Part shown: positions 5,661 through 55,590 of the stretch, in pieces
Numbering within the stretch: the stretch's first letter is position 1
Layout of the letters: the number at the start of each line of letters is the position of its first letter
Assembly: GCA_950295325.1 (NCBI GenBank)
Contig: OX485803.1
Location: forward strand, 26,972,001 to 27,036,000
Source of the DNA: Polytrichum commune
Lineage: Eukaryota > Streptophyta > Polytrichopsida > Polytrichales > Polytrichaceae
DNA length: 64,000 nt
Direction of reading: 5' to 3'
Notes under the pieces: model-generated
What the model was told of the DNA's origin: nothing
What the model saw: only the letters and a program-made list of their open reading frames with translations
The model's database searches: none
Made by a program: the position numbers and the translations under genes

Positions 5661-6104
5661 TGCATATTCCCAATCATGATACCATCAACAATCTAACGTA
5701 TCAGTATTTCGATTAGGTCGGAATCAATAGTGCCATGAACAATGTCTTGGATTTAAGTGCTAAAGTGAGGAGGAATGAACGGTGAAAATGAGCAATGATG
5801 ACAAACTCTAGACAGGCCAACTTTTGACTTTTAAAAATTCACAATAATTTCAATTTAAGAATAAAGGATAAAATTACTGAAAAATTTAAATCCTCCTTAT
5901 CTTCTTAAATCTCTTCTTACATGGGAAAAATTTGCACTGATTATACTTCTCCAGATCTGCCGCAGAATCTCTTAAGCGATCGGTTATGAGCGCCTCCACT
6001 CTAGCTTCGTGTATGAGCATGAAACAAGCATCCAAGCGACAAATAAAAAAAATCCTAGAATTACAAAAGATATATGTATATATATAAAAAAACTCTAGCA
6101 AAAA

Positions 6105-6186
6105 TGCACCGGCCGGGAATCGAACCCGGGTCTGTACCGTTCTACTGACGTGGCAGGGTACTATTCTACCACTAGACCACCGGTGC
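6105..6186 (-). tRNA. tRNA-Gly(GCC) with an 11-nt putative intron
   Basis: The minus strand folds as a complete tRNA: acceptor stem GCACCGG with CCGGTGC (6180..6186 with 6106..6112), D arm with an intact box A (TGGTCTAGTGGTA), T arm with an intact box B (GGTTCGATTCC), anticodon GCC at 6152..6154 and discriminator A at 6105. A TTTTT Pol III terminator follows directly (6100..6104). Without the 11 nt at 6140..6150 the gene is 71 nt long and matches plant tRNA-Gly(GCC) almost base for base. The extra 11 nt (CGTCAGTAGAA) can be placed between positions 37 and 38, the standard eukaryotic tRNA intron site. Its third base from the 3' junction is G and can pair with C32. The placement is ambiguous by one or two bases, because the same insertion can be read one base to either side. 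Confidence 0.9.
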
Positions 6187-54000: not shown

Positions 54001-55590
54001 GGTCATATTCTTGAAGTAAGAGCATCTATCTAGCAATTCGTCTGGATACTACCAGTCGGTTAACCAAATAGATTAAAGCTTGATGGTCCATGTAGAAAAC
54101 AAAATGGTTGGCTAGGAGATAGTGCCTAAATTTTCCCACGGAGTAAATCATAGCTAGAGCTTCACGCTTTGTAGTGTTATAATTCTTCCTAGCACTATTT
54201 AGGAGTCTACTGGCATAATAAATAGGAAAAAGTCTTTATCTCCATGTAAATTTTGAGCCAAGACTGCCCCAATGGCTATGTTGGATGCATCACAATGTAC
54301 GTGGAACTCCATCGTCCAATTGGGGGTAATTAATATGGGTGTGGTAATCAACCTTCTTCTTACCTCTTCGAATGCTTGTTGGCAAGATTGGTTCCAATTA
54401 TACATTTCTCCTTTCTTCAGTAATAAGTACAAAGGTCTAGAAATTTCAGCCTACATCTATATAAATTTACAGTAGTATGTAGCTTGTCCTAGGAAGCTTT
54501 GGATTCCCCGTACTATGGTTGGTGGGGGTAAACCTTTTATAGCCTCCACTTTTTTAGGGTCTACTAACAAACCTTCCTTGCAAACCACATGTCCCAAGAT
54601 TCTCACTGAATTGACACAAAAATAACACTTTTCTGGGTTCACGCTTACTCCATTCTTACGGCATTTGATGAGGCATTTCTCTAGATATTCAATATGGTCT
54701 TCTTTGTTTCCATGTACAATGAAATCATCTAGAAATACCTTCATAAATTTGTCTAGGTATTCCACAAATATCTCCATCATGCCCCTTTGGAAGGTGGCTG
54801 GTGCGCACATCAATCCCAAAGGCATTACTCGGTACACAAATGCTTCGTACTCGGTAATGAAAGGAATCCTTAGCTGATCTTCTAATGCAATCATGATTTG
54901 GTTGTATCCGCTATATCCCTCCATCAAGGTACACATCTCGTGACTAGCTATTGCTTCCAAATTTGATTATGTAAAAGGCAGAGGAAAAGGACCACCTTAG
55001 TGATTACATTTAATTTTTGATAATTAACACACACTCGGAGTTTCCCATTCTTTTTGGGCACAATCACAATCGGTGATAACCAATTTGTTTTATCAACGGG
55101 GTATATAAATCATGCTTCCAATTATTTGTCAATTTCTTCTTTTCCTTTGGCTACATAATTGGGGTTCATTCTATAACGCATCTGTCTTACATGCTTTGCA
55201 TCTGGTTGTAGTTCAATCTTGTGTTCGCACACATACGGAGGTATCCCTTTCATGTCCTTGCATGTAAATGCAAACACGTCTTTGAATTGTAACAAAAATT
55301 ATTTTATTCTTGCTTCATATTCGCCCAAGTCTTTAGCTAATTTTGATTAACTTAGGATCCTCAGGGGTTCCTAAGTTCGAACTTTTGACTAGGTCTTCAT
55401 CTTCAATGGTACATCTTGCTATTTTCTTTCCCTTGATTGCCTTTGAGGCAACGGTAGTGTCCACTGTTATATCCCTCTCTTTTACTTTGTAAAATTGGTT
55501 GGGATATATAGGTTTCTCCTCCATGGCTTCTTGCTCTTTCTTGGTTGCTTTCCTAGGCTGAGGTTTCCCCTGATTGAGCAAGTATTGATC
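53990..55590 (-). pseudogene. Decayed Ty3/gypsy polyprotein: protease-RT linker, reverse transcriptase, RNase H
   Basis: In order on the minus strand: a linker-like frame (55333..55581), then KDVFAFTCKDMKGIPPYVCE and VRQMRYRMNPNYV (about 55140..55290), FIYPV and SPIVIVPKKNGKLRVCVNYQ (about 55020..55090, after stops), GYSGYNQI, YRVMPLGLMCAPATFQRGM and the catalytic FLDDFIVHG (54457..54960), TYYCKF, then RNase H with HCDASNIAIGAVLAQ and, after a frameshift near 54226, KNYNTTKREALAMIYSVGKF. At least two stops and one frameshift break it. Gag and integrase are missing. It is not active. Confidence 0.9.

Follow-up and report, generated by a model that had tools for sequence, protein, structure and literature searches.

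Introduction

Introns in the nuclear tRNA genes of plants are usually described as a matter of tRNA-Tyr and elongator tRNA-Met (eMet). In a survey of 50 species, including four mosses, Met and Tyr account for 86.87% of the 1826 intron-bearing genes, and introns reach all 20 amino acids (PMC12652284, drawn on in part like the other papers cited here). In rice, for example, introns occur in Met and Tyr genes and in a few Cys, Ser, Thr and Ala genes (PMC5492330). An 82-nt gene in the moss Polytrichum commune raises a simple question in this context. It reads as tRNA-Gly(GCC), the most numerous tRNA type in the four mosses surveyed (PMC12652284), and carries 11 extra bases in its anticodon loop. 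Is this a working gene with a spliced intron, a dead copy broken by an insertion, or a tRNA of another identity?

An earlier note on this DNA put forward the first answer and held that introns in land-plant nuclear tRNAs are confined to tRNA-Tyr and eMet. That rule was too strict, since rare others have been reported in flowering plants. Among 69 genomes passed through a high-confidence filter, one intron-bearing tRNA-Gly gene is listed (Musa balbisiana), and nine intron-bearing tRNA-Phe genes of Gossypium hirsutum are among the rare non-Met/non-Tyr cases (PMC11700998, Table 2).

Throughout, the window is the whole stretch of 64,000 nt that was analysed (C1:26972001-27036000). The genome searched is a 408-Mb assembly of 64 contigs, seven large ones making up nearly all of it (six of 42 to 78 Mb, and C4 of at least 47.7 Mb). 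Seven chromosomes would suit the Polytrichaceae. The PsaB gene of the assembly (L031, on C8) points to a moss as well: it scores highest against PDB entries 8htu, 6l35 and 7ksq (1700.6-1704.6 bits), which are photosystem I of the moss Physcomitrium patens, followed by 9lut (1667.2 bits).

The gene in the window

Direct reading and the Rfam tRNA model (52.9 bits, gathering threshold 29) confirm a tRNA-Gly(GCC) gene with 11 extra bases (Table 1). The A and B boxes, which we assigned by eye against the consensus, and the immediate T5 terminator are present, as the earlier note states. Without the 11 nt, the gene is identical at 71 of 71 bases to three intronless copies in the genome. In the window copy alone, three adjacent placements fit the insertion (CCA|CG..). 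The proposed site between positions 37 and 38 is one of these, and it is unambiguous in six other genes (two at L010 and one each at L012, L013, L014 and L020) because they carry unlike introns.

Table 1. Features of the window; positions are counted from its first base.
Feature	Positions	Strand	Basis or remark
tRNA-Gly(GCC) gene with intron, pre-tRNA of 82 nt	6105..6186	minus	direct reading and Rfam
5' exon, through A37; anticodon GCC at 6154-6152, C32 at 6156	6151..6186	minus	
Intron CGTCAGTAGAA, 11 nt, position 37/38	6140..6150	minus	boundary set by unlike introns at other loci
Intron bases I-6 to I-3 (GTAG), partners of loop bases 35, 34, 33 and 32	6142..6145	minus	
3' exon, starting at C38	6105..6139	minus	
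A box TGGTCTAGTGG	6169..6179	minus	by eye
B box GGTTCGATTCC	6116..6126	minus	by eye
T5 Pol III terminator (TTTTT), adjoining the gene end	6100..6104	minus	
Open reading frame, 373 aa, containing glutathione S-transferase domains	466-1587	minus	possibly of the glutathionyl-hydroquinone reductase type (our guess)
DDE_1 transposase-like frame of 535 aa	49676-51283	minus	
Reverse transcriptase fragment	54457-54966	minus	

The motif GTAGAA within the insertion also occurs in the D arm, and the earlier note suggested an internal duplication as the origin of the intron. Seven other genes with intact exons, and an eighth at L009, read GCAGAA at that place. The match is therefore a one-base peculiarity of the window copy and lends no support to an internal duplication, which we rejected as a source.

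ARAGORN (bacterial code) names the window gene tRNA-Thr(CGT), with an anticodon taken from the insertion. Its calls for all 15 intron-bearing genes described below are nine Thr(CGT), three Ser(GCT), one Ser(ACT), one Phe(AAA) and one undetermined; none is Gly. At face value, these would be unspliced tRNAs of other identity (Thr, Ser or Phe). Every copy, on the other hand, has the body of a tRNA-Gly, the anticodon loop would have to span at least 18 nt, and the call shifts with the intron sequence. These three points rule out the identities named by ARAGORN and leave the idea of unspliced tRNAs next to no credibility.

A family of intron-bearing tRNA-Gly(GCC) genes

A DNA search with the window gene returned 38 matches, 30 of which were cut out as loci; the other eight include two 77% matches on C6. 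A pattern of the 5' half, allowing up to three mismatches, occurs at 28 places, four of them outside the loci cut out and examined. Of the 28, those with no more than one mismatch number 22 and comprise 18 full-length genes and four 5' halves joined to other DNA, and two of the six places with two or three mismatches (in L021 and L030) are fragments.

Fifteen of the 18 full-length genes have the insertion and three do not. Exons are intact in 14 intron-bearing genes (L001-L008, two at L010, L012, L013, L014 and L020), which occur on C1, C2, C3, C5, C6 and C7; the fifteenth, L009, combines an intron with a C-to-T change in the T loop. The three intronless genes (L015, L016 and L017) have intact exons and terminators, and a T-run of at least four begins no more than 9 nt past the gene end in all 18. 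What the earlier note saw at one locus recurs in 14 genes with intact exons, and in different forms, so the single-locus half of the note's condition for a dead copy does not apply. The 14 intact genes hold eight distinct introns of 11, 12 or 14 nt: CGTCAGTAGAA in the window copy, CGTCAGCAGAA in seven genes, and GCTCAGCAGCAGAT, GCTCAGCAGCAGTT, TAAATAGCAGAT, GCTCAGCAGTT, ACTCAGCAGTT and AAAACATCGCAGAT.

The exons are far more uniform, with one 71-base mature sequence common to 14 of the 17 intact genes. Over these 17, the exons differ only at acceptor pairs 4-69 and 6-67, always with pairing kept: C4-G69 becomes T4-A69 in L013 and L014, and L020 adds G6-C67 to A6-T67.

Could these be dead copies, in which an insertion broke the anticodon loop and the broken gene was then duplicated? 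Intron-bearing genes score 52.6-52.9 bits with Rfam (L009, 50.2) against 62.3 for intronless ones, and ARAGORN does not recognise any of the 15 as Gly, as dead copies might lead one to expect. The deficit of about 10 bits, however, is what an insertion necessarily costs. Moreover, the exons have stayed intact at 14 loci despite eight intron forms and diverged flanks.

Two features lie upstream of some copies. CACGTG or CACGCG is present at -20 of nine of the 18 full-length genes (L003-L007, both genes at L010, L013 and L014) and at -13 of L020; it is absent within 60 nt upstream of the intronless L015-L017 and of L001, L002, L008, L009 and L012. This box is possibly an upstream element; in some copies it could instead reflect common descent. 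The intronless tRNA-Gly(GCC) gene of L017 has a U5 spliceosomal RNA gene (L017:622-734, 90.6 bits) some 0.8 kb upstream.

Pairing at the splice sites

In all eight distinct GCC introns, bases I-6 to I-3 (GCAG; GTAG in the window copy, where U forms a wobble pair with G34) pair at four of four positions with loop bases 32-35 (CTGC). Four other registers give no more than two of four. The probability of four pairs in a shuffled intron is 0.002-0.018 for the eight GCC introns and the one tRNA-Gly(CCC) intron described below, and 0.003-0.018 for the GCC introns by themselves. The resulting 4-bp helix lies between two 3-nt bulges (36, 37, I1 and I-2, I-1, 38), a motif recognised by tRNA splicing endonucleases. 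Cutting on the 3' side of 37 and on the 5' side of 38 would match the archaeal bulge-helix-bulge (PMC4090602). It also contains the pair that the earlier note had predicted between C32 and the G third from the intron 3' end: this A-I pair, C32:G(I-3), is found in every distinct GCC intron (8/8) and in the CCC intron.

When the anticodon arm is folded by itself, the 4-bp helix and both 3-nt bulges appear in nine of nine distinct sequences, and a further helix within the intron is absent in seven of them. Folded in full, the pre-tRNA of the window gene has a minimum-energy structure with neither a cloverleaf nor a bulge-helix-bulge, another pairing taking the place of its D and anticodon arms; we set this structure aside because the competing pairing uses exon bases that the intronless copies have too. 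In an alignment of the nine distinct arms (eight GCC, one CCC), 81 of 81 cells pair, compared to 14-41% in slid controls. Shuffles of this alignment match the observed value in 3 of 500 cases for four measures; for the number of pair types they do so in 50 of 500. Pair 34:I-5 is seen as G-C, G-U and C-G, and the anticodon-stem pair 28-42 as U-A and C-G; two of nine arm pairs vary on both sides, with both double changes coming from the single CCC gene.

According to PMC4090602, yeast and Xenopus extracts do not require such a helix for splicing, so the tRNA-Gly helix is supportive rather than decisive alone. As for the enzyme, the genome has one match to PF01974, the endonuclease domain family (46.7 bits, cut-off 27), which is partial and holds one internal TGA.

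Other glycine isoacceptors and the wider survey

Exact pattern matching finds two tRNA-Gly(CCC) genes. A 13-nt intron (AAAATCCGGAGAT) interrupts the gene at L034 on C2. The gene at L035 on C3 is intronless, and its mature sequence agrees by eye with that of L034. Bases I-6 to I-3 of the L034 intron are GGAG, where GCC introns have GCAG, and they pair four of four with its own loop, CTCC. In a swap test, GCC introns set against the CCC loop reach three of four, as does the CCC intron when it is set against the GCC loop. That is, the pairing bases of the CCC intron match its own, different anticodon. Dead copies are again hard to square with a helix that is kept against 32-35 in every distinct intron and altered to suit the CCC anticodon. 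The likeness of this intron to the A-rich GCC intron AAAACATCGCAGAT is no more than suggestive of kinship. L034 scores 51.1 bits with Rfam, though it was missed by default filters, and ARAGORN reports nothing there. The 21 tRNA-Gly(UCC) genes found by exact pattern match are all intronless; given their number, GCC is not the sole well-populated glycine isoacceptor.

Among pattern-matched genes, introns are present in 12 of 12 tRNA-Tyr and 10 of 10 eMet. In the register of the glycine introns, pairing is complete (four of four) for 11 of the 12 Tyr genes and three of four for the remaining one; the register test is less sharp for Tyr, as its introns reach three of four in two other registers. 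The six distinct eMet introns, with boundaries placed by analogy, all pair at 32, 33 and 34 and not at 35 (three of four), again in the same register. For Tyr, eMet, Gly(UCC) and Gly(CCC) alike, the counts cover exact pattern matches, with diverged genes falling outside them.

The tRNA family search scored 63 of 24132 candidates, making the total of intron-bearing tRNAs a lower bound. Two narrower gapped patterns, bound to one D-arm type (tRNAs with other D arms fall outside their scope), matched 35 and 44 places, compared to 18 and 21 for reversed-pattern controls. By eye, introns within these matches are limited to Tyr and Gly(GCC); the other matches in both are tRNA-Leu, plastid tRNAs, repeats and chance matches. 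A broader gapped pattern occurs at 174 places, and among the matches listed for it are near-identical tRNA-like repeats (TGGTGTAATGGTTGGAGGTGGG..GGGTTCGAATCC and variants) at C1:69785680-69785740, C2:47429356-47429416 and C3:12605696-12605756, which could be a tRNA-derived SINE.

Exon constraint, flank divergence and broken genes

Copies with identical 82-nt genes have flanks that have drifted apart. In best local alignments, the upstream DNA is 88% identical over 371 columns for L002/L008, 88% over 140 columns for L003/L005 and 95% over 247 columns for L006/L007. If all sites were equal and neutral, the chance of zero change in 82 nt at the flank rate would be 2.8e-5, 2.8e-5 and 0.015, respectively. 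Gene conversion could contribute to the exon likeness among copies.

Broken genes provide a contrast. At seven fetched loci the 3' half of the tRNA gene has been severed by a retroelement, and these loci hold four further distinct introns. The A-I pair is lost in one of the four, and exon errors occur in four of the seven severed halves (L021, L024, L027 and L028). We regard it as very unlikely that the intact intron-bearing genes are dead.

A second alternative grants that the introns can be spliced and gives them little weight: the three intronless genes would make most of the tRNA, and the intron copies would be mostly silent or homogenised by conversion. Three copies with intact exons and terminators do exist and could be the sole supply of tRNA-Gly(GCC), and the single exon sequence of 14 in 17 intact genes could stem from conversion. 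However, intact intron-bearing genes outnumber intronless ones by 14 to 3, and the compensated acceptor-pair swaps of L013, L014 and L020 are unlike the work of conversion alone. A minor role for the intron copies is thus improbable.

A retroelement within tRNA-Gly genes

The repeated element within tRNA-Gly(GCC) genes has 3' junctions at L018, L019, L021, L024, L027, L028 and L029 and 5' junctions at L018/L022, L023, L025 and L026; L033 also belongs here. Its 3' end, ..ACCTCGGTGAGGTCTTCAC (L027 departs from this at one base), meets the tRNA at the same base, AGTACCCTGCCA, in the seven fetched loci. Both sides of the element are present at L018, with an 18-bp repeat, AGTACCCTGCCACGTCAG, and the same 18-bp repeat accompanies the halves L025 and L021, which flank about 11 kb. 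Frames in this interval encode DUF4283, endonuclease, reverse transcriptase and zf-RVT domains, so the element has the appearance of a non-LTR retrotransposon whose specific target is the anticodon arm in tRNA-Gly genes with introns. Dada elements, which also sit within tRNA genes, are of a different kind, namely DNA transposons (PMC3706591). By eye, the end sequences of the element are unlike the introns, which gives no sign of the retroelement as intron source.

A probable working gene that would need splicing

Taken together, the observations lead us to read the window gene as a functional nuclear gene for tRNA-Gly(GCC) that belongs to a family of like genes and whose canonical intron is spliced by proteins. 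We put the probability of this at roughly 0.93. Judging from the DNA, the introns are most likely real and protein-spliced in most found copies of one glycine isoacceptor in this moss. We observed the sequences, the gene family, the pairing and the constraint on exons directly, and from them we infer transcription, cutting and ligation. Pol III would transcribe a pre-tRNA of 82 nt between its mature ends, in which I-6 to I-3 and loop bases 32-35 would form the 4-bp helix with a 3-nt bulge on each side. The Sen endonuclease would then make two cuts, one after 37 and the other before 38, leaving the halves to be joined by the plant tRNA ligase. The loci would yield the same mature tRNA-Gly(GCC), save for the paired acceptor-stem swaps. 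Because most of the tRNA-Gly(GCC) genes found are intron-bearing, this tRNA probably needs splicing before use.

A wider scenario can be offered tentatively, and we lean somewhat against it. The intron may have spread through most Gly GCC genes in this moss lineage and entered CCC with its pairing bases re-suited; decoding of GGC/GGU would then rest mostly with the endonuclease and ligase of tRNA splicing, and this would be a rare family-wide gain in land-plant nuclear tRNAs.

Whatever their history, these genes form a natural set: one isoacceptor has eight introns, a sister isoacceptor has one, and there are paralogues with none. Such a set would allow direct tests of tRNA-intron gain/retention in land plants, and of the extent to which a heavily used tRNA can rely on splicing.

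Comparison with known systems

Among the matches listed in our literature search, which extended to titles and the starts of abstracts (supplements lay outside its scope), no paper describes a moss tRNA-Gly intron. The supplementary tables of PMC12652284 may list some. Counts of moss tRNA-Gly genes may themselves be wrong, given that ARAGORN (bacterial code) calls none of the 15 intron-bearing GCC genes Gly and misses the CCC gene with an intron.

The closest likeness is to the tRNA-Tyr(GTA) and eMet(CAT) introns of plants, which share position 37/38, the C32:G(I-3) pair and the helix register with Gly(GCC) and have similar lengths (Tyr 10-11, eMet 10-12, Gly(GCC) 11-14 nt). Unlike Tyr (12/12) and eMet (10/10), three of 17 intact Gly(GCC) genes are intronless, and the isotype is glycine. 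The rare introns of flowering plants likewise fall outside the two usual isotypes; that table, however, lists one Gly gene in one species and gives no intron sequences, whereas in the moss most GCC loci found are involved (PMC11700998). In yeast, the tRNA-Gly(UCC) intron of Kluyveromyces lactis is, like the moss case, a late-gained eukaryotic intron in tRNA-Gly, but it concerns two genes thought to be of bacterial tRNA-Glu origin (PMC4090602). The archaeal bulge-helix-bulge offers a structural parallel, with a 4-bp helix, two 3-nt bulges and the first two anticodon bases paired to the intron (PMC4090602). The moss differs from it in being a eukaryote, in using the canonical site only (in the copies seen) and in having no extra intron helix in seven of nine folds. 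In mechanism the moss introns most likely belong to a known kind; what is unusual is their isotype and how widely they occur in the family.
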